Source: Arcicella rosea (GTDB lineage Bacteria > Bacteroidota > Bacteroidia > Cytophagales > Spirosomataceae). Taken from it: a stretch of 64,000 nt of DNA. The first letter of the stretch is position 1; each line of letters begins with the position of its first letter. The DNA lies in NCBI RefSeq assembly GCF_014204325.1, contig NZ_JACHKT010000006.1, forward strand, positions 124,001 through 188,000, read 5' to 3'. The notes under the pieces were generated by a model that was not told the origin of the DNA, searched no databases, and was given only the letters and a program-made list of their open reading frames with translations. Positions 1 through 41,989 of this stretch are shown piece after piece. Position numbers and translations under genes: made by a program.

Positions 1-492
1 ACTTACTGCCGCATTGGTTGTAGCCACATCACCATCACAATTCTGGTCTTTGTTTACTGCTTGTTTCGGAAACAAATACCCTATTCCGTTCCATTCGTAA
101 ACTACACCAATTTCGCTAGTTGGTTTTGCTTTTCGTAACAAACTATACACCGTAGGAAACATTCCGTATTCGTCTAATAATCTGGCAGGTAAATCGGGTT
201 TTTTACTTCCCCAAGTGGTATAGCCATGTAACTCTGGCCCTGCACCCATGACCATTGAAGCCCAATTGGGAGCACTTGACGATGGCAATACTGAGCGGGT
301 TTGCATCGTCCAAGAGCCTTCTTGCATGAGTTTTCGTAAATTAGGTGCATTGACACTTTTGAAAGCATAAGCTCCCAAACCATCAACGCCTATCAGAATT
401 ACGTGTTCTACCTTTTTCTGAGCAAAGCTCAATTGGTACAAAAACAATAGTAACAATACTTGAAAAAGTTTTTTATTGAATAAATTCAACAT
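1..492 (-). CDS. Secreted alkaline-phosphatase-superfamily phosphodiesterase, N-terminal part (runs off left edge)
   Basis: This is the first 164 codons of an exported type I phosphodiesterase/nucleotide pyrophosphatase-like enzyme; the rest lies beyond the window. The ATG is the complement of 490-492. A Sec signal peptide (hydrophobic stretch ending SFAQ) is followed by VEHVILIGVDGLG, which carries the first metal-binding Asp, and by LPSSSAPNW, the nucleophile loop of this superfamily. It is a close paralogue of the protein at 12025-12918 and shares almost every motif with it. It is probably the last gene of the susC-susD-metallophosphoesterase operon. The superfamily hydrolyses phosphate or phosphonate mono- and diesters with bound zinc. 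The substrate is not known; a phosphonate ester is inferred from the neighbours. Confidence 0.85.
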   Translation of the reverse strand, partial: MLNLFNKKLFQVLLLLFLYQLSFAQKKVEHVILIGVDGLGAYAFKSVNAPNLRKLMQEGSWTMQTRSVLPSSSAPNWASMVMGAGPELHGYTTWGSKKPDLPARLLDEYGMFPTVYSLLRKAKPTSEIGVVYEWNGIGYLFPKQAVNKDQNCDGDVATTNAAVS

Positions 493-506
493 AACGATTG
501 ATTTAA

Positions 507-537
507 TGGGCAAATTAGATAAACACTAATTCGCCCA
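507..537 (-). terminator. Intercistronic hairpin between phosphoesterase genes
   Basis: TGGGC and GCCCA arms enclose a second stem AATTAG/CTAATT with one mismatch and a short loop. It lies between the metallophosphoesterase and the downstream phosphodiesterase and has no strong T-run. It may therefore be an attenuator or an mRNA-stabilising hairpin rather than a full terminator. Confidence 0.4.
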
Positions 538-576
538 ATTGTTGAGGCATTGGAAAAATTAGTCCAATACCCAATT

Positions 577-1479
577 TTAATAATGATGCTCGTGATAATG
601 GTTCTCTAAAGTACCATCTTCATATAGCTTCAGAATTGCATAGCCTGGGGCTGTTTCTTGGTAATAATAAGGTTTGGCAGAATGTTCATCGCCTTTTTCC
701 CACCAAAATCCACTCATCGCTCCATTACAGAAATATTGAACGCCATTAAAAACATTGCTGTCAAGTAAATGCTGGTGTCCTGATAAACAGACCTTTACTT
801 TTTCTTTATGTTTATAGAAAAGCTTTCTCAAAATTACATTGTCGCTGTGCGTGCCACCTGCCCATGCTCCTGTTACCGAAAGAATAGGAAAATGCGACAT
901 TAGTAAAGCAAAATGACCAGTAGGTACTGCTTCTAAGCCTTTTTCGAGCCATGCCATTTGCTCTGGATCTAACGAAACACCTTTGTTATTACCGTCTAAA
1001 ATAAAGAAATGCCAGTTTTTCTTTGAAAAGCTGTAATAGCGATGTGGCATTCCCAAGCGTTTGGCAGCATAATTTACTCCATACATTTCATCTTCTTTGG
1101 ATGGAGCATGCCACCAAGGGTCATGATTGCCAACACAGCTATGCAACTCGTATTTATCAATTACTTTGATACTTTCGTCCCATGCACTCCATTGATCGAG
1201 CATTTTTTCACGAGTAACGTCGCTATAATCTGCCGCAAAAATAGAGTCACCACTATTGAGGAAAAAATCTACTTTATGTGTCATTACTTCCTTCAAGCAT
1301 TTCTGAAAACGCTCAGGAGCATTATCTCTACGACGAATATGAACGTCTGTAATATGACCAATCGTCAATATTGGTTTAGCTTTGGAACGCAAACTTTGAT
1401 TTGCCTGTGCCTCTTTAGTAGTAGCCCCAATAGTTGTTGCTGCCAAAGAGCTACTAACAAGAAAATCTCTTCTTTTCAT
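577..1479 (-). CDS. Tat-exported calcineurin-like metallophosphoesterase
   Basis: A 300-residue metallophosphoesterase that should hydrolyse phosphomonoesters or diesters in the periplasm. The N-terminus has a twin-arginine signal (KRRDFL, then an Ala-rich stretch to about residue 26). All di-metal motifs are visible: D45-x-H47 in TDVH, G77-D78, GNHD at 117-120, H196 in MSHF, and GHQH at 234-237. It is encoded 4 bp downstream of susD on the same strand, so it belongs to the SusCD operon. Export by Tat suggests that the protein folds with its metal in the cytoplasm. The substrate is unknown; its place in a putative phosphonate locus suggests a phosphate or phosphonate ester brought in by SusCD. 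Confidence 0.88.
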   Translation of the reverse strand: MKRRDFLVSSSLAATTIGATTKEAQANQSLRSKAKPILTIGHITDVHIRRRDNAPERFQKCLKEVMTHKVDFFLNSGDSIFAADYSDVTREKMLDQWSAWDESIKVIDKYELHSCVGNHDPWWHAPSKEDEMYGVNYAAKRLGMPHRYYSFSKKNWHFFILDGNNKGVSLDPEQMAWLEKGLEAVPTGHFALLMSHFPILSVTGAWAGGTHSDNVILRKLFYKHKEKVKVCLSGHQHLLDSNVFNGVQYFCNGAMSGFWWEKGDEHSAKPYYYQETAPGYAILKLYEDGTLENHYHEHHY

Positions 1480-1483
1480 TATT

Positions 1484-3265
1484 TTACCAACCTGCTGGTT
1501 GAGTTAAGTTTTTGTTTAAAATAATCTGTTGTTGTGGAATCGGGAAATAGTAGTATTTACTTTCGTTAAAATCACGAGGTTGATTTTTGTCTTTCGTGAA
1601 AACGATATTTCCATAAGTACCATTACTCAAATAAAAACTTCCATCAGAAAGGTAATATTTTACAATTTTACTTTTAATATCTGCTGGTAAAGTTGCCAAA
1701 GGTTCTTCTTTACCTGGAGCTTCCAAAATAGCAATATCTTCTTTTCCATCACCAGTTACATCTATTCCTCCTAATTGTTTTACATACATTCCATTAGAAG
1801 CCTTAGCCAATAACTTTCCTACTTTCCAACGATATATATCATCAAAACGGAATCCTTCGCAAGCCAATTCAACTCTTCTTTCACGTCTGATTTCTAAAAT
1901 AACCCCTTTGTTACTGCCACTTACATTAGGATATTTATTGGCCAAATATGAGTCGGGATTAGCGTTGGCATTGCTCAGATTCAAGTCTGGCATTCCAACT
2001 CTTTTACGAAGAAGGTTTACTGTTCTATCCAAATCTCCTTGAGTTAGCTGTCCTAATTCTGCTTTTGCCTCTGCATAAACTAATAATGGTTCAGCTAAAC
2101 GGAAAATAGGAAGGTCTGTATAATTTAGTCCAAATCCACCACGCAAAGCTGGGTCACGTGGATAGAATTTTACTTGCAAATATCCACCGAAACTTGGCTT
2201 AGGTAAGTAAGGATTTGTTCCGGGAACAGTTGTAAACCCTGGAGGCATAATAGTTTCAGATAATCTAGGGTCACGATTGGCAAAAGATTCTACAAAACCC
2301 AATTTATCGTAATTGCTTTTTGAAGTAAATGTTGTTCCATCATTGTTTAAGAAATCGTTTGCTAAATCTTGGCTCAAAGCCCATTGCCAGTCTAATACAA
2401 CGTGCGTATTATTAGTAATTCCCTCTTCTTTGCTATTCTTTCTGAGCATAATAACCTCTTTATTAGCCGATAGGTTGTTACTTGAAAAAAGGGTTCTAAA
2501 ATCTACTGCACTATTTCCTGTGTTAGTCAATGAAAAGCCACCTTTTTCCATCACCTCTTGGGCTGCACTTGCAGCACGAGTAAGGAATCTTGTTGAAGTA
2601 CTTTTCAAATTTAATTCATCATGATACAAACGATAAGTACCTTCGTGTAAAGAAGTACGAGCCAATAATGTCAAGGCAGCCCATTTTGTAACCATGGTAT
2701 TGTTGGTTCTTGATGGTAAAATATTGGCAGAAGCATATTCTAAATCGTTCATGATTGAATCTACCACTACAGTACGAGGGTCTTTAGCCTTATAGAGCTG
2801 TTCCTCATCATTTGAAGCAAGCATTGCTGAGTACCAAGGCACATCGCCATATCTTTTTACCATGTCGTAGTAAACCATTGCTCTAAAGAATCTCCCAACG
2901 CCAATATAGTGTTTGATGAGTGACGGATCGCCAGAAGCCCTTCCTGCACGAGTAAGGAAAAAATTGATACGACGTACAGTACCCCAAGAGTTCCAACCTC
3001 CTACCGTAGCAGGGTTTAGTGAGCCACGAACTAAGTTTTCAGTATCACTCCCTCCCGTATGAACTGAAAGATTATCTGAATAAATATCGTCCCAACGTGG
3101 GCCAATCGAGCCATAAAAACCATTGGTATAGGTTTCTAAATCGGCAACATTTGCAAAAAAAGTATCCTCTGTAATAGCCGTTTGTGGCTTACGGTCGAGG
3201 AAATCGTCTTTACAAGCTACGCATAAAGACAATAAAAAGAGTAAAGAAATTTTAAGATTTTTCAT
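1484..3265 (-). CDS. SusD/RagB-family outer-membrane lipoprotein
   Basis: A 593-residue substrate-binding lipoprotein that caps its SusC partner on the cell surface. It has a lipoprotein signal with the acylated Cys at 18 (after LSLCVA). The early DFLDRKP segment, the TPR-like helical body and the C-terminal KYYYFPIPQQQI block are typical of SusD/RagB proteins. It follows susC by 17 bp on the same strand. SusD proteins mostly bind glycans, but family members also take peptides and other large nutrients. The neighbouring phosphoesterases and phosphonate-catabolism genes suggest a phosphorus-bearing ligand here, which is inference. Confidence 0.93.
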   Translation of the reverse strand: MKNLKISLLFLLSLCVACKDDFLDRKPQTAITEDTFFANVADLETYTNGFYGSIGPRWDDIYSDNLSVHTGGSDTENLVRGSLNPATVGGWNSWGTVRRINFFLTRAGRASGDPSLIKHYIGVGRFFRAMVYYDMVKRYGDVPWYSAMLASNDEEQLYKAKDPRTVVVDSIMNDLEYASANILPSRTNNTMVTKWAALTLLARTSLHEGTYRLYHDELNLKSTSTRFLTRAASAAQEVMEKGGFSLTNTGNSAVDFRTLFSSNNLSANKEVIMLRKNSKEEGITNNTHVVLDWQWALSQDLANDFLNNDGTTFTSKSNYDKLGFVESFANRDPRLSETIMPPGFTTVPGTNPYLPKPSFGGYLQVKFYPRDPALRGGFGLNYTDLPIFRLAEPLLVYAEAKAELGQLTQGDLDRTVNLLRKRVGMPDLNLSNANANPDSYLANKYPNVSGSNKGVILEIRRERRVELACEGFRFDDIYRWKVGKLLAKASNGMYVKQLGGIDVTGDGKEDIAILEAPGKEEPLATLPADIKSKIVKYYLSDGSFYLSNGTYGNIVFTKDKNQPRDFNESKYYYFPIPQQQIILNKNLTQPAGW

Positions 3266-3282
3266 TATCGAAAGTGCTAAAA

Positions 3283-6200
3283 TTAGAAGTTTAGATTTAA
3301 TCCAAAAGCATAAGTACGCTGAAAAGGATACACTGCGTTACCGGCACTACCACTACCTAATGCTTCAGGGTCAAATTTCACTTTGGTATAAGATATTTCG
3401 AAAATATTTTCTGTGCTTACAAACAACCTTACTTTATCAATCTTAGCCTTTTTCAATATTGAAGCTGGTAGCGTGTAACCAAGTGTAATATTTTTGACTC
3501 TCATATAAGCAGCATTTTGCATATACTTTTTGTTAGGCAATGACAATTGTTCTCCAGAGTTCTCTGCTGTATAAGCACGAATGGCAGGGAAATATGCGTT
3601 TGGATTTTCAGGTGTCCAATGATCTAAGTTTTGTACCGTAACGTTTGTCCAAGGTTGGGCAAATACTCCCCAGAAATACACGTTAGAAGCATCTGGATAC
3701 CAGTCACGCTTACCTACTCCTTGCATAAATACACGTAGGTCAAAACCTTTCCAAGAAGCACCCATATCCATCCCAAAAGTATATCTTGGGCGACTATTAC
3801 CAATTTTATACAAATCGCCTGGGTCATTTACAGTTCTTAGCCCCTTGTTTACAATGCCATCACCATTTCTATCGGCAAAAATTGGATCACCCACAAAGAA
3901 TTGGTACGATTGCTCGGCTGCTCCCATCGCTTTCTGGTCAGGGCTATTTTTGAGTTGTTCTTGGTTTTGGAAATACCCAATAATATCAGCTCCCCAAATC
4001 TCGCCTATTTCTTGTCCTTCGTAATATTGATTCAATAATTTACTTGGGTTATCAAAACGTGTGATATAACTGCGGCTATCGGCTAAGTTAAACGCTAAAT
4101 TATACTGGAACGGCGATTTCCCTAAGTTGAATTGATCTCTCCAACCAAGACGGAACTCCCAACCTGTCGTTTTTAAGTCTCCTGCATTCTCTCTAGGTAC
4201 ATTTGTTCCAAAAACGGCTGGCAACGTCTTTCCCGGAATAAGCATATCATTAGTATAACGAGTAAACTTATCAAAATTCACTTGCAGACGATTACTCATA
4301 AAAGCTAAATCCACACCAAGGTTGACAGTCGCAATATTTTCCCAAGAAAAATTACCAGAAACAGCACCAGGAGCATTTACAGTCTGAGGGCGAGTTGTGC
4401 CTAAAATTTGTGAAACTTGAGACGATGCCATACTTGGAATATAATCATATTCACCCACTGAAGCTTGGTTACCCAATATTCCATAAGAACCTCTTAGTTT
4501 CAACAAATTAATAAAGTTATTTGAATTGATACTACGAATAAATTCTTCGTCTGATACAACCCATCCAGCAGATACAGACGGGAAGAAACCCCATCTTTTA
4601 CCTTCTGGGAAACGAGATGTTCCGTCATATCGACCATTCAATTCTAACAAATACTTATCCTTGTAATCATAGCCCAAACGGTAGAATAAGCCTCTTACAG
4701 CCCAATCATTTATAGACTCTGAAGAACTCATTGTTCCTGTACTTAAACCAATTGAAGGTAACGTAGTAGATATAATGTTATTTCTACTAATATTAGATGT
4801 AATACTTTTTCTATACTCTTGGTTGAAACCAGCCAATGCTTGAATAGAATGCTTTCCGAATGATTTATGCAAATCACCATAGATATTGAATACTGTATAA
4901 TCAGTATTTCCATTAGTATTCTGAGCCCAGCTTGTGGTTGAACCTGTATTCAAAATAGGGTTATTAGGGCCTGTTCTGTAAGGAATAGGTATATCAAACG
5001 ATCGGACTAAGCTGGCTCCACGTCTGAAAGTAGCCTCTCCTTTGATGTCGAAAATCCCTTTTATTACCGTTGCTTTAGCGCCAAAACTACTTTGTAATTC
5101 AGTGATTGATGACCTTGAACGTCCTCCATCTTGTAATCTCCCTAATAATCCTGCTCCTGCACTCGTCCAAGAACCATCAGGATTTCGTGGAACATCCAAA
5201 GAGTTTGTTCTATTTACATTCCAGAAGAAATTGCCATCAATAAACACAGGAGAATCATAATTCGTAAACGAAAGCTGAGTATTATTGGTAAATGATAGCC
5301 ATTTTGTTACGTTCAAATCTACTTTACCACGGATATTATACCTTTTGTAAACATCATTTCCATACTTCAAAAGACCGTCTTGTTGATAATAATCGGCTGA
5401 AAAGTAGTAGCTTAAACTCTCTGCTCTTTTTGAAATAGCAATATTTGAGTTATAAGTTGGAGCTGATTGTTGGTAGGCTTCTTGAATCCAGTTAGTATTG
5501 CCATAATAAGCCCAGTTGGCTGGAGTAGTTGGGTCGATAATTACCGAAGGTAGTGATAAATCTTCTGAACGCTTTTTCGCATATACTCTTAAAGCATCTG
5601 GATATAAGTTATAAAGAGGTACTGCCGATTGATGCTTATTGATCATTACCTGATAAGGGTCAGTAACCAATTCAGGCATTTTTCCGATTGTTCTAAATCC
5701 TACATTTGAATTTACGGTAACATTCATTTTATTGCCTTGTGGGGTCTTGGTTGTAATTAGCACTACACCAAATGCAGCTCTTGCACCATAAATAGCTGCC
5801 GAAGAGGCATCTTTCAAAACCGTAACGCTCTCAATATCATTGAAGTTAATTCTTGAAACCTCAGCTACCGTAAATGGTACGTTATCTACCAGAACAAGTG
5901 GGTCTCCACCATTGATACTTGTAATACCTCTGATATTAAAACTTGGAGCTGAACTTGGGCGACCACTTGGGTTAGCGATGTTCAAGTTGGGAATAAGTCC
6001 CTGTAAACCAGAGGCTACGTTATTGATGGGACGATTTTCAAGTTGTCTTGAACTGATGGCATCAACTGAACCCGTTAGATTTATTTTCTTTTGAGCACCG
6101 AAACCGACTACGATAACTTCATCAATATTTTTATCTTCCGACAACAATCTCACTGTAATATTCGACTGTCTTCCAATCTCAATAATTTGTGATTGGTAGC

Positions 6201-6516
6201 CGATGTAAGATACTATCAGCTTTGAATTTTCCGGAACTGATAAAGTAAAGTATCCACCAGCATCCGAAACTGTTCCTACCATACTTCCATCTACTTTGAT
6301 ATTTGCACCTGCTAATGGTTTATCATTTTCATCCAAGACTCTACCTCGAAGGCTTTTATCTTTGAAAATAGCAGATGACATTTTGTTTCCCAAAGGAGAG
6401 CCAATAGCCACAATCGGGCAATAGCATAGGAAAAACGTTACAGCTAATAAGCTGGACAACGTAATCAATCGCCATTTTGTTGGGCGAAGATTATTAATCC
6501 GGGTAAAAGTGTTCAT
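3283..6516 (-). CDS. SusC/RagA-family TonB-linked outer-membrane transporter
   Basis: A 1077-residue TonB-dependent transporter that works with the SusD lipoprotein encoded just downstream. In order it has a signal peptide, a carboxypeptidase-regulatory-like domain (about 55-140, GRVLDENDKPLAGANI), a TonB box region followed by VVVGFGAQKK, the plug (GLQGLIPNLNI, NIRGI), and a long beta-barrel ending in LNLNF. The length is usual for the family. It is the first gene of a leftward operon (susC, susD, metallophosphoesterase, phosphodiesterase). Its promoter region carries the shared palindrome at 6653-6666, next to the divergent XRE-cupin regulator, so control by that regulator is likely. Confidence 0.95.
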   Translation of the reverse strand: MNTFTRINNLRPTKWRLITLSSLLAVTFFLCYCPIVAIGSPLGNKMSSAIFKDKSLRGRVLDENDKPLAGANIKVDGSMVGTVSDAGGYFTLSVPENSKLIVSYIGYQSQIIEIGRQSNITVRLLSEDKNIDEVIVVGFGAQKKINLTGSVDAISSRQLENRPINNVASGLQGLIPNLNIANPSGRPSSAPSFNIRGITSINGGDPLVLVDNVPFTVAEVSRINFNDIESVTVLKDASSAAIYGARAAFGVVLITTKTPQGNKMNVTVNSNVGFRTIGKMPELVTDPYQVMINKHQSAVPLYNLYPDALRVYAKKRSEDLSLPSVIIDPTTPANWAYYGNTNWIQEAYQQSAPTYNSNIAISKRAESLSYYFSADYYQQDGLLKYGNDVYKRYNIRGKVDLNVTKWLSFTNNTQLSFTNYDSPVFIDGNFFWNVNRTNSLDVPRNPDGSWTSAGAGLLGRLQDGGRSRSSITELQSSFGAKATVIKGIFDIKGEATFRRGASLVRSFDIPIPYRTGPNNPILNTGSTTSWAQNTNGNTDYTVFNIYGDLHKSFGKHSIQALAGFNQEYRKSITSNISRNNIISTTLPSIGLSTGTMSSSESINDWAVRGLFYRLGYDYKDKYLLELNGRYDGTSRFPEGKRWGFFPSVSAGWVVSDEEFIRSINSNNFINLLKLRGSYGILGNQASVGEYDYIPSMASSQVSQILGTTRPQTVNAPGAVSGNFSWENIATVNLGVDLAFMSNRLQVNFDKFTRYTNDMLIPGKTLPAVFGTNVPRENAGDLKTTGWEFRLGWRDQFNLGKSPFQYNLAFNLADSRSYITRFDNPSKLLNQYYEGQEIGEIWGADIIGYFQNQEQLKNSPDQKAMGAAEQSYQFFVGDPIFADRNGDGIVNKGLRTVNDPGDLYKIGNSRPRYTFGMDMGASWKGFDLRVFMQGVGKRDWYPDASNVYFWGVFAQPWTNVTVQNLDHWTPENPNAYFPAIRAYTAENSGEQLSLPNKKYMQNAAYMRVKNITLGYTLPASILKKAKIDKVRLFVSTENIFEISYTKVKFDPEALGSGSAGNAVYPFQRTYAFGLNLNF

Positions 6517-6643
6517 AACTCAGACCGATATTTTAAAAGTTAAAAAGAGATAAATTGAATATGAAAGAATTTGCACCTGCAGGGCGAATAAACTTAACAA
6601 GCTAGTTTATGAAAATTAAACATCACCGCTAAAATTATCAGTA

Positions 6644-6666
6644 CAAACTTAATAAACTTTTGTTTA
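6644..6666 (-). promoter_or_regulatory. susC promoter: operator TAAAC-N4-GTTTA next to a -7 box
   Basis: TAAACTTTTGTTTA (6653-6666) is a perfect 5+5 palindrome. Read leftwards it is separated by 1 bp from TAAGTTTG (complement of 6644-6651), which fits the Bacteroidota -7 consensus TAnnTTTG. The same palindrome stands 1 bp from a -7 box at 12992-13014 and occurs again at 9795-9808. The rest of the 307-bp gap (6517-6823) is AT-rich and holds no gene. Confidence 0.7.
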
Positions 6667-6823
6667 ATATATGTAAACTTTTTATAAAATAATTTATGTT
6701 ATATATATAAAAAATATAATTGAAGCAAAGAAAGGGGTATCTATAAAACTGGAAGCATCCTTATAAAAGATTTTTAGCTTAATTTTTTGAGATAAATGAG
6801 CAAAAATCGGTAATATTGTACTT

Positions 6824-7396
6824 ATGGAAGCATTATTTATTTTAGAGGTTGGCCGCCGCATAAAACAACAAAGGCTTGATAAAAGAATGACATTACAGGA
6901 GTTAGCAGACAAATCAGGAGTCAGTAAAGGCTTAGTTTCCCAAATAGAAAATGGGCGAACAATTCCCTCTCTCTCTGTAATGTTTGGTATTATTCAATCA
7001 CTCGAAATTGAAGTAAGCGAGTTTTTTCAAGGGCTTGGTCTTCTTGAACCAACAATTTTAGTTAACCGCAAATCTGACTATACTACTTTTGAGAAAGAAG
7101 ATGCTATAGGTTTTAGTTACAAGCGTATTATGATGCGTAATCTTCCTTCAAGTACAATAGATTTTGTTCTTTTAGAGCTTAGTAGCGACTCTTACCGTGA
7201 AGAAGTCACTACTGATGCTTATGAGTTTGTTTATGTCATAAAAGGTCAAACAGAATATAGAATAAATGATCAATCTCTTTTACTTAAAGAAGGAGATTCA
7301 ATGTTTTTCGATGGTAGATTACCTCATCTACCGAGGAATATTTCAGACACTACATGCCAGCTTTTTGTAATTTATTTCTTTGCTCAAAGTAGCTAA
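6824..7396 (+). CDS. XRE-family transcriptional regulator with C-terminal cupin domain
   Basis: A 190-residue regulator divergent from susC. Residues about 8-62 form a lambda-repressor-type helix-turn-helix (RIKQQRLDKRMTLQELADKSG, recognition helix in SKGLVSQIENGRTIPS). Residues about 110-185 form a cupin barrel (YEFVYVIKGQTEYRIND and EGDSMFFDGRLPH), which in this family senses a small ligand. It sits between the SusCD operon and the transporter/dehydrogenase operon and abuts the stop codon of the convergent transporter. It is the only regulator in the locus, so it is the best candidate to bind the TAAAC-N4-GTTTA sites. A possible -7 box (TAATATTG, 6811-6818) lies so near the ATG that the mRNA may have almost no leader. 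Confidence 0.9.
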   Translation: MEALFILEVGRRIKQQRLDKRMTLQELADKSGVSKGLVSQIENGRTIPSLSVMFGIIQSLEIEVSEFFQGLGLLEPTILVNRKSDYTTFEKEDAIGFSYKRIMMRNLPSSTIDFVLLELSSDSYREEVTTDAYEFVYVIKGQTEYRINDQSLLLKEGDSMFFDGRLPHLPRNISDTTCQLFVIYFFAQSS

Positions 7397-8626
7397 TCAT
7401 ATACTTTTTTGTGATCTTAAAGAAATAATTAAAGAGGAAAGTAAACACATCAAAGCTATTAGTAAAAAAATATGAGCTGTATTACCGGTAATATCTATCA
7501 GTTTTCCAAGAATGGGCTCCCCAAGGGCAGCAAATAAATAGCCAGTCATATTCATCAATCCAATTCCAGTACCTGTTCGTTCACTTCCAAGCATCTCTGG
7601 GCATAAAGTCCAAAAGTTACTCTGAGGTCCATAGACAAAAAAACCAGCAAACAACATCATTAATCCTTGTAGCATTAAGTTATTTATTGGAGCCACATAA
7701 ATAACTAATGCTACAAGCATACTCATCAGCATTCCAAAGCGAATAGATGCGATTCTGTTTCCTCTGAATATTGTGTCTGAAAGTACACCAAATGAAAATG
7801 CTCCAATAGACATTCCGACAGGTAACAAAAAAGTCATCCATAACGATTGCTGATTCTGTTTCCAATTATTTCCTAAATAGTGTACTGGCACCCAAAAAAT
7901 AAACCCATATCTTGCCATACTTTCAAATGCAAATGAAAGCATAACAATTAAAAAACCCTTATTTCTAAAAATGTCTTTATAACGGTCAAGCCATTTATCT
8001 TCCTGTGAATGTTTTACAAAGTTATCTTCTAAATCAAGGAACCCTAGCTCTGAAGGTTTGTCTCTAGCAAAAATTAAAAATAAGGTAGCTGTTACAAATA
8101 AAAGTAATACTGGCAAGCGGAAAAGTATTCTCCATTCAAGATCTTCTTGTAAAATAAAAATAGAAATAAGATAAGTAACCACCGACGAAACTCCTGCCGC
8201 CATTGTATAAAAGCTAAATGCTTTGCCTTTTTCATCGTTACTCCACCAATTTGAAATCAGTTTACCACCTGGAGCCCAAGCCATTGACTGAAAAAAACCA
8301 TTTAAAGCCCATAAGACAAAAACCCATTCTATCGAATTAGCAAAACTAATAGCCACATTGGCAGCGATTGACAAATAAGCTCCCAAAGGCATCATAATTC
8401 TTGCACTATAACGATCTGCAAGATTACCACTTACAAGCTGTCCAATAGCGTAACCCAACAACATCGAAAAACTAATCCAGCCAATGGTTGTAAAAGGAAC
8501 TTTAAAATGTTCTGCCATTCCATGCGCAGCCCAACCAAAGTTGTGTCGACCAGTATAAAAAAACAAATAGCAAACCATTGTTAATATCAACATTTTCCAT
8601 TGCTGTTTGCGAAATAAATTGGGCAT
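7397..8626 (-). CDS. MFS transporter, organophosphate:phosphate antiporter-like
   Basis: A 409-residue, 12-helix inner-membrane transporter. The start MPNLFRKQQWKML followed by YLFFYTGRHNFGWA resembles the OPA branch (GlpT/UhpT/UhpC), whose members move organophosphates or, in related clusters, phosphonates. It is encoded 12 bp downstream of the HpnZ-like dehydrogenase on the same strand, and its stop codon abuts that of the XRE-cupin gene. It would carry the product made by the periplasmic phosphoesterases into the cytoplasm. The MFS assignment is firm, the OPA placement fairly good, and the substrate is inferred from context. Confidence 0.85.
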   Translation of the reverse strand: MPNLFRKQQWKMLILTMVCYLFFYTGRHNFGWAAHGMAEHFKVPFTTIGWISFSMLLGYAIGQLVSGNLADRYSARIMMPLGAYLSIAANVAISFANSIEWVFVLWALNGFFQSMAWAPGGKLISNWWSNDEKGKAFSFYTMAAGVSSVVTYLISIFILQEDLEWRILFRLPVLLLFVTATLFLIFARDKPSELGFLDLEDNFVKHSQEDKWLDRYKDIFRNKGFLIVMLSFAFESMARYGFIFWVPVHYLGNNWKQNQQSLWMTFLLPVGMSIGAFSFGVLSDTIFRGNRIASIRFGMLMSMLVALVIYVAPINNLMLQGLMMLFAGFFVYGPQSNFWTLCPEMLGSERTGTGIGLMNMTGYLFAALGEPILGKLIDITGNTAHIFLLIALMCLLSSLIISLRSQKSI

Positions 8627-8638
8627 ATTTTTGTTCTT

Positions 8639-9730
8639 TTAGTTGTTTAAACGAATACCTACTCTCAAGGGTTTGTGATCGACAGCATATTCAAATGCTT
8701 TTTGTCCCTGAGCTAAGGAAAACTCTTTACCAATTATTTTTTCAAAGGGAAAATGTAAGTAATTACGTTCCATAAAATCAACAGCATAAACAAGATCTTC
8801 ATAATTATAGTTATGCAACCCCTTAATAGTAATTAGTTTTCTTACGATTTGCTCTGCATTAATCTTCAAATTACGTGAATGGAAAACGGCACCAATCCAA
8901 ATTGCTATCCCTCCTACTCCTAGTGCTACTAGACCAGCCTCCATAGCTTCAGCGGCCCCACTCATATCAAACACAACATCTATATTATTTGAATATTTGT
9001 TAAGTAATGCTGAATCTCCTTCAAGATTTCCTTGTTGAAACATGTATGTTTCATCAGCACCAAAATCTAAGGATTGATTTAATCTTTCTGCATTTATATC
9101 TGCAGTAAATATTTTTGCTGCTCCTGCATCCTTACACATGGCTACACACACAATACCGAGCAAACCTAATCCTGTAATTAGCACTCGCTTTGATTTTAAA
9201 TCACCAGCAAGTCGCAAAGCCCCAGCAACAGTTGCTACAGAACAATTAATCGTTGCCGCAACGCTCAAAGGTATATTTGAAGGAACTTTTATAATAGCTG
9301 TGTTTCTCTTTAAGATACAATAATCCGCTAATCCTCCATGAAAGGCATCATTATCAGTAACTTGGGCATGACCATACTTAAACAATCCAGACGATTTTTG
9401 GGGCATTCCTCTCTGTGCCTCCATTGAAAGGGGATCTGACGAAAAAATACTCCAAGTAACTCTATCTCCTTTTTGTAATAAATTACCAATATAATCATGA
9501 TTAGAATGTTCCGTCCCTATTTCTATGACTTCACCTACAATTTCATGCCCAAGTACACTTGGTGTCTTTTCATGCCTTAGTCCACAAAAGGTGTGAAGAT
9601 CGCTCCCACAAATAGTTGTATATAAATTCTTCACCAGAATTTCCTCAGATCCTATTGGAGGAAGCTCTCTTTCGATAAGCTTCATTTTCTCATTAGCTCC
9701 ATTAAATACTAAAATTTTACCTGAACGCAT
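8639..9730 (-). CDS. Zinc-dependent alcohol dehydrogenase, HpnZ-like (phosphonate-catabolism associated)
   Basis: A 363-residue medium-chain dehydrogenase. It has C41 of CGSDLH and GHE at 61-63 for catalytic zinc, and a Rossmann motif (GLGLLG, near residue 196) for NAD(P). The insertion with WSIFSSDPLSMEAQRGMPQKS and the overall pattern match, from memory, the subfamily TIGR03366 (putative phosphonate-catabolism alcohol dehydrogenase). Members of that subfamily usually neighbour HpnW-like FAD oxidoreductases and PhnX-like hydrolases, and both are encoded at 10043-11936. Adjacent genes encode the MFS transporter (same operon) and the regulator. The substrate is unknown. The promoter region carries the shared palindrome at 9795-9808. 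Confidence 0.82.
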   Translation of the reverse strand: MRSGKILVFNGANEKMKLIERELPPIGSEEILVKNLYTTICGSDLHTFCGLRHEKTPSVLGHEIVGEVIEIGTEHSNHDYIGNLLQKGDRVTWSIFSSDPLSMEAQRGMPQKSSGLFKYGHAQVTDNDAFHGGLADYCILKRNTAIIKVPSNIPLSVAATINCSVATVAGALRLAGDLKSKRVLITGLGLLGIVCVAMCKDAGAAKIFTADINAERLNQSLDFGADETYMFQQGNLEGDSALLNKYSNNIDVVFDMSGAAEAMEAGLVALGVGGIAIWIGAVFHSRNLKINAEQIVRKLITIKGLHNYNYEDLVYAVDFMERNYLHFPFEKIIGKEFSLAQGQKAFEYAVDHKPLRVGIRLNN

Positions 9731-9763
9731 TTCTAATTAGTAAATAAAAAATTGAATATAATA

Positions 9764-9808
9764 CAAATATAGTAACCCAATAGTTTATAAATACTAAACT
9801 ATTGTTTA
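9764..9808 (-). promoter_or_regulatory. Promoter of dehydrogenase-transporter operon with operator palindrome
   Basis: The palindrome TAAACTATTGTTTA lies at 9795-9808, with a third half-site GTTTA at 9783-9787. A -7 element TATATTTG (complement of 9764-9771) sits 23 bp downstream in the leftward direction. The operator is therefore further from the -7 box than in the two other promoters. The remainder of the gap to 10042 has no gene, only a hairpin at 9961-10019. Confidence 0.6.
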
Positions 9809-9960
9809 TTTTTACATTAAATTAATAATAATTTAATGTATCGTTTGAATAAAAAAGAATGTGATGTGTAAACTCATAGCTTTTAGGAAGCTAATTACGA
9901 TAGAGCTACTAATTAAGAAGAAAATGATATAATAAGCGTAGAACTGAAAATGTAAATTGA

Positions 9961-10019
9961 AGGCGAATATGTGTTGTCTTTTTATAAAAAACCAAAGAGT
10001 AAAACCCATTAATTCGCCT
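9961..10019 (-). terminator. Long-loop hairpin downstream of the FAD oxidoreductase
   Basis: AGGCGAAT (9961-9968) pairs perfectly with ATTCGCCT (10012-10019) around a 43-nt loop. It follows the leftward operon ending at 10043, so it may terminate that operon. No clear T-run follows, so the call is tentative. Confidence 0.35.
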
Positions 10020-10042
10020 ATTATTTACTTCGTTTTTTAAAA

Positions 10043-11194
10043 TTACCCAAATATTTCTTTAACTCTTTTTTGTGCAAATCCTGGAGAAGTCGTCATGCCT
10101 TTTCCTCCAATACCTGTAGCAATGAAGATTTTTTTATCTATATCATGTTCGTATATTCCCCCATCTTTTGTTTGGGAATAATAACCTGCCCAGTATTGTT
10201 GTATTTCCCACGTTGGTAAATCTATCATTCGTTGTGCTTCTTTGAGAATCAAGTCATTGATAGTCATGTTAATACTAAAATCTAAATCGGCGGCTTGTTG
10301 TACAGAAGCGTATTCGTGCGAATCACCGATAATGATGCTCCCATCAATAGCCTGTTTGAAAAGAATATGAATACCCCATTTTTGGTATTCCTCCAAAGAT
10401 TCGGGTAGCTTAATGGTTGGATAAGAAGCACAAGATTTGAAACTGTCGTATCGACGAATACTTAATCCCGAAAGTATATTGCCACGAAGCTCTACTTCTG
10501 GCATTGGAACAGTGGACATCATATTGAGCTTACAAATACTTAAATCGCTATTTTCAAACAGTTCGGGATATAATGCTTTAAAATCTCGCCCGTTACAAAT
10601 GGCTACTTTTTCGGCAAAAAACTTTTCTCCCTTAGCACTAACAACCTCACAAATCCCTTGATTTACAGCACAATCTATTACAGTTGTGTTGTTGAGATAC
10701 TCCATTCCATATTCTTGTATCAGTAAGTTACGAACTCGGTTTACCATTAAACGAGGCTCTACCGAAAATTCTTGAGGAAAAAATAAACCGCCTTTGCAAT
10801 AAGAATTTTTTAAGGATGGTATTTTCTCAATACAAACTGTTGATGTTAGTAAATGGGCTTGGTAATCTCTTTCCTGAAAAAGTTGTTTAGCTTCTTCCAA
10901 CAATTGTAATTCGTCATCATCAGAGGCTAGGTAATACGAACCATTTGGACGAGCCGAAATATCTGTACGTTGTTGAATATGTCCATAAATATCTAAAGAA
11001 GTACGGCCATATTCAAACCAAGTATCAAGGGCTTGCCCAGAAGGAACTACTTGTCCAAAATTACGAACGGTAGCCTCTATAGGTGCTGCGTCTTTTTCAA
11101 GCATCAAGACTTTTTTGCCTGCTTTCAAAGCATGAAAAGCATGGAATGTTCCGAGATTACCCGCTCCAACAACAATTAAATCATATTTTGTCAT
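10043..11194 (-). CDS. FAD-dependent oxidoreductase, HpnW-like (TIGR03364 type)
   Basis: A 383-residue DAO-type flavoenzyme. The N-terminal GxGxxG dinucleotide motif is in IVVGAGNLGTFHA, a Glu-ending beta strand (VLMLEKD) follows, and the C-terminal FIATGIGGKGMTTSPGFA contacts the flavin. From memory this fits the TIGR03364 group, which is repeatedly found beside PhnX-like hydrolases and HpnZ-like dehydrogenases. Flavoenzymes from such clusters have been reported to oxidise aminophosphonates (for example N-methylated 2-aminoethylphosphonate) to phosphonoacetaldehyde. It is encoded 31 bp downstream of the PhnX-like gene, so its product could feed that hydrolase. The exact substrate here is inference. 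Confidence 0.85.
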   Translation of the reverse strand: MTKYDLIVVGAGNLGTFHAFHALKAGKKVLMLEKDAAPIEATVRNFGQVVPSGQALDTWFEYGRTSLDIYGHIQQRTDISARPNGSYYLASDDDELQLLEEAKQLFQERDYQAHLLTSTVCIEKIPSLKNSYCKGGLFFPQEFSVEPRLMVNRVRNLLIQEYGMEYLNNTTVIDCAVNQGICEVVSAKGEKFFAEKVAICNGRDFKALYPELFENSDLSICKLNMMSTVPMPEVELRGNILSGLSIRRYDSFKSCASYPTIKLPESLEEYQKWGIHILFKQAIDGSIIIGDSHEYASVQQAADLDFSINMTINDLILKEAQRMIDLPTWEIQQYWAGYYSQTKDGGIYEHDIDKKIFIATGIGGKGMTTSPGFAQKRVKEIFG

Positions 11195-11225
11195 GACGTA
11201 TAAATAGTTAAATAAGTTCTGAGGT

Positions 11226-11936
11226 TTAGTTCAAATATTTTTTAATAGCCGCAATATTAGGCAATAAGCCATGATTCTGATAAGGACTCAACTGAGCTTC
11301 TGAGTGCGTACCGTTGGTTACGCCAAACGAATACTTTACATCTGCTTTTATACCAGATAATAAATCAGAAGGAGTATCGCCAATATTAATAACTTGTTTG
11401 GGGTCAGTAATGCCAAATATTTGCATCGCATACTGAATCATATCAGGTTCTGGACGACCATTTTTTACTACATCAGGGGTAATAGAAGCATCAATTAAGC
11501 TATTCCCATTAGTAATATATTGGTCATTAAGTCCTTCCAACCAACCTAATTTTCCCAATATTATATCGGCTACTTTTCGATAAAAGCCTGTTGTTAGGGC
11601 AATATTGATTTTTTTTTCTCGAAGAATAGAAAAAATTTCTAAACACCCCTCTGTTGGATAAACAGGGTTTTCGAGGTAATGATTTTCAAGGATTTCGCAG
11701 AATGTCTGATACGATTCATCTACTTTGCACTGTATCTCAACAGGGTCGGTTAATTGTTCCGACCAAAGAAGCTCAAATACGTATCTTTTGGAATAGCCTT
11801 GTAAAGCTAATACTCTTTCAGGACTTACTGTTAGCCCTGTTTGAGAGGCTGCTTTTATAAAACAAATTTCTACTTCATGTTGGTCTTGGACGGTTGTACC
11901 AGCCATATCAAACACTACTAGTTTTATTGCACTCAT
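11226..11936 (-). CDS. PhnX-like HAD hydrolase (phosphonatase-like)
   Basis: A 236-residue HAD-superfamily hydrolase with VFDMAGTTV at the start (nucleophile D10; Ala after the DxA position as in phosphonatases). A cap region contains GYSKRY with K50. Further motifs are ALTTGF (motif II), KNGRPEPD (motif III Lys) and NIGDTPSDL (motif IV). The DMAGTT signature and the offset of K50 from D10 resemble phosphonoacetaldehyde hydrolase, where a cap Lys forms a Schiff base with the substrate. No alignment was made, so the role of K50 is a suggestion. It lies between a phosphodiesterase paralogue and the HpnW-like oxidase in one operon. The likely reaction is C-P bond cleavage of phosphonoacetaldehyde or an analogue. 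Confidence 0.85.
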   Translation of the reverse strand: MSAIKLVVFDMAGTTVQDQHEVEICFIKAASQTGLTVSPERVLALQGYSKRYVFELLWSEQLTDPVEIQCKVDESYQTFCEILENHYLENPVYPTEGCLEIFSILREKKINIALTTGFYRKVADIILGKLGWLEGLNDQYITNGNSLIDASITPDVVKNGRPEPDMIQYAMQIFGITDPKQVINIGDTPSDLLSGIKADVKYSFGVTNGTHSEAQLSPYQNHGLLPNIAAIKKYLN

Positions 11937-12024
11937 AATTATGGAATTGATTTAGTTTTTAATAATCTATCATGATTTTGATAGACATGAACTTGTTTTA
12001 ATATATTAACTGCTTTGGGATGTT

Positions 12025-12918
12025 TTATTTAAAAGCATCTACGACGGGTTTACCAATCCATACTTGCGGTTGCTTTAATTTAAAAAGTTTTGCAATGGTT
12101 GCTGCAGTGTCGAATGTCATTACACTTTCAGTCACTTCATGATTAGTTTTGATACCTGGACCAGCAATAATCCATGGTATTTGCATTTCCTGCATCGAAA
12201 TAGACCCATGATTTTTGTTGATACCACCATGGTCGGCAGTAAAGATTATCACCGTTTTCTCGGCAATACCAGCATCTTTGATACTCTGGATAATTGTTCC
12301 TAAATAGGTATCTATTGTTTCTACCGATTGATAATATGCTGGCGTATTATGACCGATAGAATGCCCTACGTGGTCAACTTCATTAAAGTGAACAAACAAG
12401 AAATTAGGTTTTTTCTCTTTGATATAACTTACAGCTGCCGATGCAGTAGCACTATCTCCATCACAATTTTGATCTTTATCAACTGCTTGTTTTGGAAACA
12501 AAAATCCTATTCCGTCCCATTCATATATTACACCGATTTCGCTTGATGGTTTGCCTTTTCGCAATAAACTATACACATTTGGAAACATCCCGTATTCATC
12601 TAATACCCGTGCTGGCAAATCTGGTTTTTGGCTACCCCAAGTAGTATAACCATGCAATTCTGGGCCAACACCCATTACCATTGAAGCCCAATTGGGAGCA
12701 CTCGACGAAGGCAAAACCGAACGTGCTTGCATAGTCCAAGTACCTTTACTCATCAACTTCCTTAAATTGGGTACACGAGTATTCTTGAATGCGTAAGCTC
12801 CCAAGCCATCTACTCCAATCAATATAACGTGTTCAATTTTACTTTGAGAAAAAGTAGTTTGAGATAAAACAATAAATAAGAATATTTGAAAGATTTTTTT
12901 TGTCAATTGTTTTAACAT
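12025..12918 (-). CDS. Secreted alkaline-phosphatase-superfamily phosphodiesterase
   Basis: A complete 297-residue paralogue of the truncated gene at the left edge. It has a Sec signal peptide (ends about residue 25, TFSQ), a metal Asp in VDGLG (D37), the nucleophile loop PSSSAPNW (70-77), VDHVGHSIGH (181-190, metal His/Asp), and TADHGG (228-232). It is short for the superfamily but holds all core motifs. It is the first gene of a leftward operon with the PhnX-like hydrolase and FAD oxidoreductase, and carries the shared operator upstream (13001-13014). It could release phosphonate from an ester such as a lipid head group in the periplasm; that substrate is inferred. Confidence 0.9.
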   Translation of the reverse strand: MLKQLTKKIFQIFLFIVLSQTTFSQSKIEHVILIGVDGLGAYAFKNTRVPNLRKLMSKGTWTMQARSVLPSSSAPNWASMVMGVGPELHGYTTWGSQKPDLPARVLDEYGMFPNVYSLLRKGKPSSEIGVIYEWDGIGFLFPKQAVDKDQNCDGDSATASAAVSYIKEKKPNFLFVHFNEVDHVGHSIGHNTPAYYQSVETIDTYLGTIIQSIKDAGIAEKTVIIFTADHGGINKNHGSISMQEMQIPWIIAGPGIKTNHEVTESVMTFDTAATIAKLFKLKQPQVWIGKPVVDAFK

Positions 12919-12991
12919 AATACCTAAACTTTTATGAACCTAAAAAATGACTATCACATTAATTATTTTTAACATGATGACATTCATTGTG

Positions 12992-13014
12992 CAAATATAT
13001 TAAACTTTTGTTTA
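12992..13014 (-). promoter_or_regulatory. Promoter of phosphodiesterase-PhnX-FAD operon with operator
   Basis: TAAACTTTTGTTTA (13001-13014) is identical to the susC palindrome. It stands 1 bp from TATATTTG, the complement of 12992-12999, a perfect TAnnTTTG -7 box. The geometry matches the susC promoter exactly, so both operons probably answer to one regulator. Confidence 0.72.
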
Positions 13015-13105
13015 GTATTAATGAATATTTGTCAATATTTTCAAGCTAGCAATATGTTGTCATTTACCTATGCCTAAGTACTAAGGATAAATTAATTGAG
13101 AATAT

Positions 13106-13170
13106 AAACCTATAAGGATTTGAAGTTAAATCTCTTATTATTAGTTAATTATATAAATCCTTATAGGTTT
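13106..13170. repeat. 65-bp element with 16-bp perfect inverted repeats
   Basis: The left arm (13106-13121) starts AAACCTATAAGG and the right arm (13155-13170) is its exact reverse complement, around 33 AT-rich bases. It lies between the phosphonate locus and replication module 1. It could be a bidirectional terminator, a recombination site or a small mobile-element remnant; the sequence does not decide. Confidence 0.6.
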
Positions 13171-13582
13171 AATTAAAAACTTCTGAATACTTATCTACTC
13201 TTAATTAATATTTAGTTTAACTTTTCACTTTTATTTTATAGAGATATTATGAAAGAAAACTCCTGTATCTCCAATCTATTTTGACTAGTATAAGCATCTT
13301 TTATTCTGTACTTGCAATATATTATTTAAGTCTGGGTACTCATTAACAAACTTCAGTATATTCCCCAGTTTCGCTTAGAGGAGCTTTCTGGTTCTGAAAT
13401 TCTTTTTTTTAGGTTTGCAGATAATCTCTGAATTTACCGCCAAAGTTTGGTAGAGCTTGATGAATAGTTACCTTTATTTAATTTAAAAGCGTTTGATATG
13501 ATTCTAACGCCATATTAATCAGATATAAATTGATTAAAGTGTTCATTTTTCTAGGATGTTGAATAATGAGCATAAAAAACCT
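13171..13582. other. Gene-free AT-rich stretch between phosphonate locus and rep1
   Basis: No convincing gene. On the minus strand a broken reading (containing NFGGKFRDYLQT) suggests an eroded coding fragment, but no family is recognised. Confidence 0.4.
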
Positions 13583-14965: not shown

Positions 14966-14990
14966 TATTAAATTATATCCTGTAAATATA

Positions 14991-15541
14991 CCTAAATCTG
15001 TTATAGTTAACCCTAAAAAGGTTATAGAAAACCCTAAATCTGTTATAGTTATTCCCTAAAAAAGTTATAGAAAACCCTAAACTTGTTATAATAAACCCTA
15101 AATCTGTTATAATAAAAGCTGTAATCCATTGATTTTAAAGTAGTTACAAAGCCTGAAAATACATAAAAAACATAAAAGAAAAAGTAAAATACTCAAAACA
15201 GCAGCTTGCTGATTTTTTTATTTTTTTGTATAACTTTTAGTATTCATTTAGTGAAATATCCTATTTTATAATATTTGCTTATCATCTTTTAGAGCTCTCA
15301 AAACTTAATAGCCCTAAATTTGGTATAATTGTCAATAAAAATCAATCAATTAGTTTCTTCCCTATTTTTGTTATAGATAAATAGCTCGCCAACCCTAAAT
15401 TTGTTATAGGATAGCTTTCAAAGGGTGTTTCTAAGCGTAATATTTACCCTAAATTTGTTATAATAAGCCATTTTTTTGACTAATTGATAACTAAAAGTAT
15501 TGGAATAACATAAGAATAAACCATCCCTAAATTTGTTATAA
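14991..15541. repeat. Replication origin 1: iterons CCCTAAA..TGTTATA
   Basis: Eleven copies of a roughly 17-bp iteron (consensus CCCTAAAtnTGTTATAr). Six are tightly phased at 21-22 bp (starts about 14990, 15011, 15032, 15054, 15075, 15096), next to the rep start. Five are dispersed (15312, 15360, 15393, 15447, 15525), the last overlapping the parB stop codon. The interval 15113-15311 between the groups is AT-rich and is a candidate unwinding region. Confidence 0.88.
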
Positions 15542-16444: not shown

Positions 16445-16463
16445 GATAGTATTCTAAGAAGTT

Positions 16464-40181: not shown

Positions 40182-40198
40182 TTCAATACACTCAAAAA

Positions 40199-41988: not shown

Positions 41989-41989
41989 T

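Follow-up and report, generated by a model that had tools for sequence, protein, structure and literature searches.

The window, a 64,000-nucleotide stretch of Arcicella rosea DNA, opens within a gene for a second secreted alkaline phosphatase (AP)-superfamily type I phosphodiesterase (1-513, minus strand), recognised from its open reading frame and its alignment with the copy at 12025-12918; cut by the window edge, this gene continues for 401 bp upstream and encodes 304 aa at full length. Next come a calcineurin-like metallophosphoesterase (MPE; 577-1479, minus; PF00149) with a twin-arginine start, as read by eye, a SusD lipoprotein of the Pfam PF07980 type (1484-3265, minus), and a SusC TonB-dependent transporter (3283-6516, minus) that matches TIGR04056 with 843.3 bits (cut-off 368.25) and TIGR04057 with 62 bits and, adjoining a PF07980 SusD, forms a SusCD importer with it. 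Beyond these lie an HTH-cupin regulator (6824-7396, plus; PF01381 (HTH_3) and PF07883), an organophosphate:phosphate antiporter (OPA)-like MFS transporter (7397-8626, minus; PF07690), an HpnZ-like zinc alcohol dehydrogenase (8639-9730, minus), an HpnW/PbfD-type FAD amine oxidoreductase (10043-11194, minus), a PhnX-like HAD hydrolase (11226-11936, minus), and an NPP-like secreted AP-superfamily type I phosphodiesterase (12025-12918, minus; PF01663). The gene positions of the original prediction all agreed with ours. A Pfam scan of nine of the locus proteins gave no glycoside hydrolase, and positions 1-16500 gave nothing at the Rfam gathering threshold. Judging from Rep3 and iterons, the locus is probably located on a plasmid; here, 15536-16444 had no match to the ParB family, and 16464-16895 matched AAA_31 only partially.

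An operator-like palindromic box, TAAACTWTTGTTTA, precedes each of three operons, with no strand assigned to any copy. The first (TAAACTTTTGTTTA, 6653-6666) is found between susC and the regulator gene, the second (TAAACTATTGTTTA, 9795-9808) 65 bp before HpnZ, and the third (TAAACTTTTGTTTA, 13001-13014) 83 bp before the AP-PhnX-like-HpnW operon, with its end at 13014 coinciding with the end of the region originally described. Moreover, a -7-like element starts at the second nucleotide past the first box on the susC side (TAAGTTTG), and another at the same spacing past the third (TATATTTG). When the window was shuffled 100 times, three box matches occurred in 0/100 shuffles, even with one mismatch allowed, and the only exact copies in the 5.3 Mb draft genome are these three, among 22 matches with at most one mismatch. 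As all three operons are preceded by a box of which the genome contains no further exact copy, SusCD and the C-P enzymes appear to form a single regulon, which bears out the regulon-like layout proposed originally. We presume that the HTH-cupin regulator, homologues of which occur in 39 of the 101 HpnW loci surveyed, is the protein that binds the box.

Outside this genome, the box is a weak signal. An identical 14-mer is located between MPE and SusC in S. deserti, the closest SusCD kin, which has two exact 14-mers in all, one of them between glycosyltransferase-like genes; in 20 other genomes, there are 0-3 exact copies per genome, with any copy in seven. If the arms may differ at no more than one position, 19 boxes fall in 61.8 kb before cluster genes (a count that includes the three window boxes, the S. 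deserti box, and the near-copy loci L117 and L118, and excludes L132 as a copy of L194) versus seven in 97.3 kb elsewhere. Exact arms, TAAAC-N4-GTTTA, were matched in seven of 204 loci, namely by the three window boxes and by one match each before cluster genes in L126, L130, and L193; the others are one near a transposase (L165) and two inside genes (L048 and L062).

Profile searches upheld the predicted membership of the three C-P enzymes in their families, with HpnW over its curated cut-off and the other two matching under theirs (NCBIfam). HpnW, which is 65% identical to a second HpnW copy in the same genome, scores 379.4 bits against TIGR03364 over residues 4-375 (cut-off 285.1). HpnZ is slightly under the TIGR03366 cut-off (316.2 versus 328.1 bits), and its Algoriphagus terrigena (G313) counterpart is over it (334.3 bits); further HpnZ kin occur in survey loci L132/L194, L133, L196, and L308. 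The PhnX-like hydrolase gives 161.5 bits with TIGR03351 (cut-off 218.9) and 82.5 bits with the PhnX phosphonatase family TIGR01422 (cut-off 220). The alignment to PhnX revealed D10, A12-G-T-T, K50, R161, D187, and D191 to be invariant in 87/87 sequences, with K50 opposite PhnX Lys53, the site mutated in 2ioh, and the AlphaFold model (mean pLDDT 94.9) has PhnX 1rql as its first-ranked fold in the PDB. The PhnX mechanism set, that is, the Asp nucleophile in DxAGT, the cap-domain Schiff-base Lys, the Arg, and the acidic metal ligands, thus appears to be retained by alignment, the roles of these residues and of His56 being what we assume from known PhnX; His56 itself has no constant counterpart in the 87-sequence alignment. 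The transaminase PhnW (TIGR02326, E<=1e-60) had no match in the genome and was absent from 79 of the 80 HpnW-positive genomes of the order, this one included. With regard to HpnW, A. baumannii PbfD1, annotated as TIGR03364, is reported to oxidise N-methyl-aminoethylphosphonate (N-methyl-AEP) to phosphonoacetaldehyde, and PbfD2 of the same clade to convert both N-methyl-AEP and AEP to this product (PMC10590968). In Acinetobacter, HpnW adjoins an AEP ABC transporter, phnW, and a phosphonoacetaldehyde hydrolase.

The two secreted AP-superfamily copies are 78% identical (the full gene being used for 1-513), and their active-site residues align. NPP is the nearest solved kin of the 12025-12918 protein, and D37, S73, D182, H186, D229, H230, and H237 are invariant in 11/11 sequences. 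While a PDB sequence search with MPE gave no match, its AlphaFold model (mean pLDDT 78.5) is nearest to Rv0805, GpdQ, purple acid phosphatases, and SMPDL3A. For the OPA-like MFS transporter, the best solved kin is GlpT (1pw4), and a 53% identical gene is found beside SusCD and HpnZ in S. deserti.

The nearest kin of SusD are those of S. deserti (57%) and Algoriphagus (51-54%), and the same SusCD type is found together with HpnZ, HpnW, and the PhnX-like hydrolase in both Algoriphagus terrigena and A. chordae. For two of the four closest kin, those of S. deserti and E. shivajiensis, no HpnW lies closer than about 10 kb, and so the pair may be a general phospho- or phosphono-ester importer; in S. 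deserti, OPA-HpnZ adjoins SusCD and the HpnW/PhnX-like genes are on a separate contig. Clustering of SusCD kin with glycan systems in the absence of phosphonate genes had been named as a result that would tell against the original prediction, and this came true in part. Here, the kin proved to be mainly beside phosphoesterases, though glycoside hydrolases do appear in three of 38 SusD-clade kin loci (30 of 62 unclassified neighbour genes scanned): GH20 plus an opposite-strand GH5 in E. shivajiensis, GH95 plus a GLAA-B-type protein in Dyadobacter endophyticus, and GH65 in one MAG, each with no HpnW nearby.

Across the 101 HpnW loci, 57 have SusC and SusD as an adjacent pair no more than 10 kb from HpnW, with AP or MPE in addition in 47, and 16 loci are without SusC, AP, and MPE alike (L072 was left out, as ORF calling gave no HpnW there). 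No such pair occurred in eight arbitrary 12-kb control stretches. These controls are few, were not randomly placed but taken at one set distance from HpnW, and fall short of the 21 kb of the test stretches; with a matched 6-kb gap, SusC and SusD were both present in 40/101 HpnW loci versus 0/8 controls. SusC genes are common in these genomes, but because scoring stopped at about nine candidates per genome, we did not take their density as a background. The distance profile lends mixed support to the link, in that SusC, DUF5690, and HTH-cupin genes grow rarer with distance from HpnW, while AP and HD-oxygenase genes do not. A gene of the 'phosphonate degradation HD-domain oxygenase' type is present in 49/101 loci (the copy in this genome scores 197.6 bits, under the cut-off of 214.6), and a Hymenobacter NBH84 plasmid provides an independent named case of the arrangement. 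The survey supports a recurrent link of SusCD and secreted phosphoesterases with HpnW/PhnX-like genes. A single origin for it gained no support, as the label needs two changes on the SusD tree (71 proteins) and a different SusD type serves in the majority of HpnW loci that have SusCD; PF12771 (one representative checked) is tied to HpnW in most of those other loci.

Gene identities, the box and its exclusivity, the recurrence, and the retained catalytic residues can be read from the sequence itself, and we consider it somewhat probable that they describe a probably plasmid-borne scavenging regulon for phosphonate esters, namely a SusCD locus of the phosphate-utilisation-system (PUS) type specialised for phosphonates such as aminoethylphosphonate-type esters. 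Our confidence in this was reduced slightly, though it stays above even, because of the glycoside hydrolases at three SusCD kin loci. From here we infer the ligand and its size, its import, every reaction, and the pairing of regulator and box. SusD and SusC would import a phosphonate-bearing ester, with AEP or N-methyl-AEP on a lipid, sugar, or peptide, and in the periplasm three phosphodiesterases, the two secreted NPP-like ones and the Tat-type one, would cleave the P-O-C ester. The GlpT-like MFS transporter could then move the small aminophosphonate inward, where HpnW, acting as a PbfD-type enzyme, would deaminate it oxidatively to phosphonoacetaldehyde, and the PhnX-like hydrolase would use its Asp nucleophile and Schiff-base lysine to cleave the C-P bond, giving phosphate and an aldehyde. 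HpnZ might process the aldehyde or else oxidise a hydroxy-analogue to the same intermediate, and the regulator would repress the three operons through the one palindromic box until ligand is present. Much the same flow, with a putatively large ligand such as a phosphonolipid or phosphonoglycan, had been predicted originally. Our results support its family assignments, common control of the operons, and a recurrent SusCD-phosphoesterase-HpnW link; the SusCD kin are not solely with phosphoesterases.

Two adjacent functions could instead be involved, with SusCD, MPE, and AP (perhaps with OPA) forming a general PUS for organophosphates (phosphodiesters), HpnW, PhnX-like, and HpnZ a cytoplasmic module for free aminophosphonates, and common control serving phosphorus supply. 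Indeed, in the window's SusD clade (39 rows), 22 rows are beside MPE or AP without HpnW and 14, several of them from short contigs, are ungrouped; L167-L175 include cassettes of the MPE-SusC-SusD-AP type that lack HpnW; and PUSI of Flavobacterium johnsoniae is described as SusCD with two PDEs (PMC8115612). Yet both halves carry the exact box, which occurs nowhere else in the draft genome, and this SusCD type accompanies all three C-P enzymes in two Algoriphagus as well as OPA-HpnZ in S. deserti. The PF12771 association points the same way, and we regard this division as rather unlikely, at around one chance in four.

Still less probable is a carbon/nitrogen system, in which SusCD imports a phosphorylated glycan or aminolipid and the three enzymes act on a substrate lacking a C-P bond, for example an amino-alcohol phosphate. 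The sub-cut-off PhnX-like score, the inconstant His56, and the glycoside hydrolases near three SusCD kin are in keeping with it, as is a Maribacter SusCD beside AP, an FAD oxidoreductase, and a phosphonatase-like hydrolase that is reported to be strongly induced by laminarin relative to the control (PMC11345257). However, the nucleophile motif and the Schiff-base lysine do not vary in any of the 87 sequences, and in PhnX both serve to cleave 2-oxoethylphosphonate; HD-domain oxygenase genes accompany about half of the HpnW loci, and the scanned locus proteins include no glycoside hydrolase. As for a chance neighbourhood put together on a plasmid, the plasmid-type context and the commonness of SusC genes are all that speak for what we judge to be highly improbable, and it was rejected on the strength of the common box and the recurrence of conserved gene sets in other families.

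Taking locus and survey jointly, we see an even chance of a distinct, widespread Bacteroidota phosphonate route, in which SusCD, with at least two SusD Pfam types separately recruited, would import phosphonate-bearing macromolecules, secreted NPP/GpdQ-like enzymes would release the aminophosphonate, DUF5690 or OPA transporters would bring it inside, and an HpnW/PhnX-like pair would replace PhnW/PhnX, the window's version being one operator-controlled, plasmid-type regulon. DUF5690, whose function is unknown, is a strong candidate for a phosphonate transporter, and the route, if true, would assign this family a role that can be put to the test. Biogenic phosphonate is in part ester-bound in lipids and polymers, SusCD import is usually associated with sugars, and the phosphonate uptake systems that we know of take free small phosphonates. 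Phosphonates are estimated to make up 5-25% of marine dissolved organic phosphorus (PMC9671461), and Bacteroidota are described as without many ABC importers for small molecules (PMC8812569). If true, a SusCD route would explain how Bacteroidota gain access to the ester-bound phosphonate pool, and it would caution against a default 'glycan' label for SusCD pairs such as that of Maribacter (PMC11345257).

In common with PULs, the locus has a SusC/SusD pair, a regulator, periplasmic hydrolases, and an inner-membrane transporter, but its hydrolases are phosphoesterases, with no glycan-degrading enzyme among the nine proteins scanned. HpnW-HpnZ-PhnX-like clusters with PhnCDE occur in Actinobacteria, according to the TIGR03351 family description; the enzyme trio is the same, whereas ABC import of free phosphonate there contrasts with SusCD/OPA here. 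The PhnWX pathway is set apart by its PhnW transaminase, for which this genome has no match. In the hydrolytic PbfD/PhnX pathway for AEP (Zangelmi et al., 2023; PMC10590968), a TIGR03364 FAD enzyme is likewise beside a phosphonatase without PhnW, though the parts of that paper at hand mention no SusCD or secreted esterases, and the hydrolase here is PhnX-like rather than of the PhnX group. Of a described SusCD-based phosphonate pathway, the original prediction had known none; the idea is not categorically new, since PusCD clusters have been reported to adjoin phosphonate-degrading enzymes (Lidbury et al., 2020; PMC8115612), and the Maribacter study (PMC11345257) touches on a similar link. Like the Flavobacterium PUS, for which SusCD with phosphoesterases and no CAZymes is the mark, the locus joins SusCD to periplasmic phosphodiesterases or phosphatases and to co-localised phosphonate-degrading enzymes, and by this gene content alone we assign it to the PUS type. 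Compared with the Flavobacterium clusters as presented in that paper, it differs in its order, its HpnZ-HpnW-PhnX-like set, its OPA transporter and HTH-cupin regulator, its private operator-like box, and its plasmid-type contig.

On the minus strand, the locus opens with a secreted type I phosphodiesterase of the alkaline phosphatase (AP) superfamily (12918-12025), which is first in an operon with a PhnX-like hydrolase (11936-11226) and the FAD amine oxidoreductase HpnW (11194-10043). A 312-bp gap precedes the zinc alcohol dehydrogenase HpnZ (9730-8639), followed by an organophosphate:phosphate antiporter (OPA)-type MFS transporter (8626-7397) and SusC (6516-3283), and then by SusD, a metallophosphoesterase, and a second AP-phosphodiesterase crossing the window edge at base 1. 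The two AP genes thus flank the locus on both sides, their proteins being 78% identical, while an HTH-cupin gene (6824-7396, plus strand) is oriented opposite to its neighbours. Here, the regulon-like layout of the original prediction is borne out by a 14-bp palindrome-like box, TAAACTWTTGTTTA, which we spotted by reading three upstream regions of the locus and which has exactly three copies in the genome, all of them in this locus: 137 bp before susC (and 158 bp from the start of the divergent regulator gene), 65 bp before HpnZ, and 83 bp before the AP-PhnX-like-HpnW operon. A Bacteroidota-type -7 element, TAnnTTTG, starts at the 2nd nucleotide after the box before susC and AP, where the box would occupy a repressor-like position, and at the 24th before HpnZ. 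The HTH-cupin protein is a putative binder of the box. Moreover, Sphingobacterium deserti has an identical 14-mer between its own metallophosphoesterase and SusC genes, and palindromes with the same arms precede PhnX-like genes in two compared loci (by 74 bp in L126 and 23 bp in L130), the box enrichment across relatives being modest.

The locus resides on a 204,483-bp contig of a 5.31 Mb draft genome in 77 contigs. By eye, the genes on its far side look like those of sugar and sugar-nucleotide metabolism. Adjoining its near side is an iteron-type plasmid origin, namely a Rep3 initiator (PF01051) with 21-22-bp iterons (13583-15547; iterons at 14989-15118, plus scattered copies), and then a ParA-like AAA_31 fragment (16464-16895). 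Because of these features the contig is most likely a plasmid; a Pfam check near the locus did not confirm ParB beside the initiator. A perfect 17-bp inverted repeat with a 33-nt loop (13105-13171) separates the phosphonate locus from the replication region. The window also holds a second Rep3 initiator (60275-61735) with tandem repeats close by (59985-60116), which suggests two replicons, perhaps a co-integrate. Also present (38169-46399 and 47810-56984) are CRISPR-Cas genes (Cas_TM1802, Cas3-like, and Cas1), type I by look, and a long array of a 37-bp repeat, CTTCCAAAGTAACTTCCATTAGAATAAGGATTGAAAC.

As for the three enzyme families originally proposed, HpnW is a clear member of TIGR03364, but HpnZ and the PhnX-like protein score 12 and 57 bits, respectively, under the curated cut-offs. 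For the latter, we consider the residues more telling than the family score: in an alignment of 87 sequences (the window protein and 86 relatives of 200-300 aa), all 87 share the DxAGT nucleophile motif, the cap lysine K50, the arginine of GRP, and the acidic metal ligands, and K50 aligns with PhnX Lys53, the position mutated in structure 2ioh. In Foldseek, a PhnX structure is the top match of its predicted model (mean pLDDT 94.9), with other HAD phosphatases scoring close behind. Since PhnX His56 has no constant counterpart in this alignment, the enzyme may act on something other than phosphonoacetaldehyde itself. The AP proteins, whose nearest kin are NPP-type phosphodiesterases, retain their metal ligands and a serine nucleophile in 11 of 11 sequences. 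The metallophosphoesterase, modelled with a mean pLDDT of 78.5, is similar in structure to Rv0805, GpdQ, purple acid phosphatases, and SMPDL3A, and the MFS transporter is nearest to GlpT. Signal peptides were judged by eye only.

Across the order Cytophagales, TIGR03364 scored above cut-off in 121 of 390 genomes. Of 123 places not in the Arcicella rosea genome, we sampled 100 for family spread, together with the window and a second A. rosea locus, and obtained the HpnW ORF in 101 of 102; neighbours were labelled with custom-built HMMs, Pfam being run on single representatives. Within 10 kb of these 101 HpnW genes were PhnX-like (86), SusC (64), DUF5690 (63), a SusD (58), AP (55), HD-domain oxygenase (49), HTH-cupin (39), metallophosphoesterase (30), HpnZ (3), and OPA (1). 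An adjacent co-directional SusC-SusD pair lies within this distance in 57 (55 of 99 once A. rosea is set aside), 47 of which also have AP or metallophosphoesterase; 16 of the 101 lack SusC, AP, and metallophosphoesterase. Nearly all of these SusDs form one family (58 members, 55 loci), of which the one member checked is PF12771, unlike the PF07980-type SusD of the window. An independent example with a named host is found on plasmid NZ_CP043649.1 of Hymenobacter sp. NBH84, where an MFS transporter, HD-domain phosphonate oxygenase, SusC, SusD, sulfatase-like protein, alkaline phosphatase family protein, HAD hydrolase, XRE regulator, and HpnW are adjoined by a Na/Pi symporter.

DUF5690 (PF18943; e.g., L010:12785-14086 and L163:8761-10005 among the compared loci), also found beside HpnW/PhnX-like genes in a Novosphingobium plasmid, resembles a membrane transporter by eye and is a strong candidate for an inner-membrane phosphonate transporter; we found no mention of it in the literature searched. 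The second Arcicella locus (contig C2, ~274800-287100) comprises AP, HpnW, PhnX-like, DUF5690, SusC, a PF12771-type SusD, and HD oxygenase, with a Mutator transposase after it. Its HpnW and PhnX-like copies are 65% and 66% identical to those of the window, whose locus thus resembles a second version fitted out with other genes.

To trace the window SusCD, we scanned one genome per species (84,980 species) for relatives, using two short peptide patterns as seeds that may miss kin, and kept the best 80 of 126 stretches with a relative. Among these 80, S. deserti gave the best SusD match (57%), the other three of the top four being Echinicola shivajiensis (54%), Algoriphagus terrigena (54% along the whole alignment, 52% in its best segment), and A. 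chordae (51%). The two Algoriphagus species carry SusC-SusD-metallophosphoesterase-AP with HTH-cupin, DUF5690, HpnZ, PhnX-like, a second metallophosphoesterase, and HpnW. In S. deserti, SusCD stands with phosphoesterases and planctomycete-type cytochrome and DUF1501 genes, then OPA and HpnZ (53% and 48% identical to the window's), and an HpnW-PhnX-like pair with DUF5690 is on a different contig; E. shivajiensis has SusCD, metallophosphoesterase, GH20, GH5, and AP, with HpnW more than 10 kb off. A metallophosphoesterase-beta-propeller fusion occurs in the SusCD loci of S. deserti (L193:11989-21219) and A. terrigena (L166:6006-8570), the former also encoding planctomycete-type cytochrome/PSD1, DUF1501, and a xylose-isomerase-like protein; these extra genes could possibly serve to oxidise the ligand's organic moiety.

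In the SusD tree, the window and these four species form a supported group of five (98/91). The clade around this group has 39 rows, of which 22 have metallophosphoesterase or AP but no HpnW as a neighbour, 3 have HpnW, and 14 fall in neither category. Clustering with glycan systems would have spoken against a phosphonate role; in 38 kin loci, we scanned with Pfam 30 of the 62 unclassified co-directional neighbours of at least 250 aa within 6 kb, and four, in three loci, were glycan enzymes or related proteins, namely GH20 in E. shivajiensis, GH95 with a GLAA-B-type protein in Dyadobacter endophyticus, and GH65 in a MAG. The close kin thus cluster mainly with phosphoesterases, but these glycan exceptions speak in part against the original prediction. 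By gene context, this SusCD lineage is therefore mainly a phosphoester one, with C-P enzymes in some members and glycosidases in a few; a glycan carrying phospho or phosphono groups would be compatible with this pattern too. Since SusCD and secreted phosphodiesterases would be needless for free aminoethylphosphonate (AEP), an esterified ligand would be favoured. In 79 of 80 HpnW-positive genomes, a search for PhnW found nothing at E ≤ 1e-60, and HpnW would for this reason be the likely supplier of substrate for the PhnX-like hydrolase. At a guess, HpnZ might either reduce the resulting aldehyde or use 2-hydroxyethylphosphonate as a substrate for oxidation.

Among known systems, PbfD1, annotated TIGR03364, is reported to convert N-methyl-AEP to phosphonoacetaldehyde, as is PbfD2 of the same clade for both N-methyl-AEP and AEP (PMC10590968). 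In Achromobacter, phnX adjoins HpnW (PMC11203657); in Acinetobacter, we found HpnW together with an AEP ABC importer, phnW, and phosphonoacetaldehyde hydrolase. The general idea of SusCD clusters with phosphonate enzymes is not new, having already been published by Lidbury et al. (2020; PMC8115612). In the literature passages searched, which included PMC12366243, PMC10574752, PMC10752948, PMC9671461, and PMC8812569, we found neither the combination of HpnZ, HpnW, and PhnX-like nor a regulon defined by the box, nor the distribution across the order. Lastly, a Maribacter SusCD pair beside AP, an FAD oxidoreductase, and a phosphonatase-like hydrolase is reported to be strongly up on laminarin, and the authors propose that it takes up this glycan (PMC11345257). 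Should the Maribacter cluster be of the same kind as the one here, the laminarin assignment or else our reading would need revision, making it a candidate for re-annotation or for counter-evidence.
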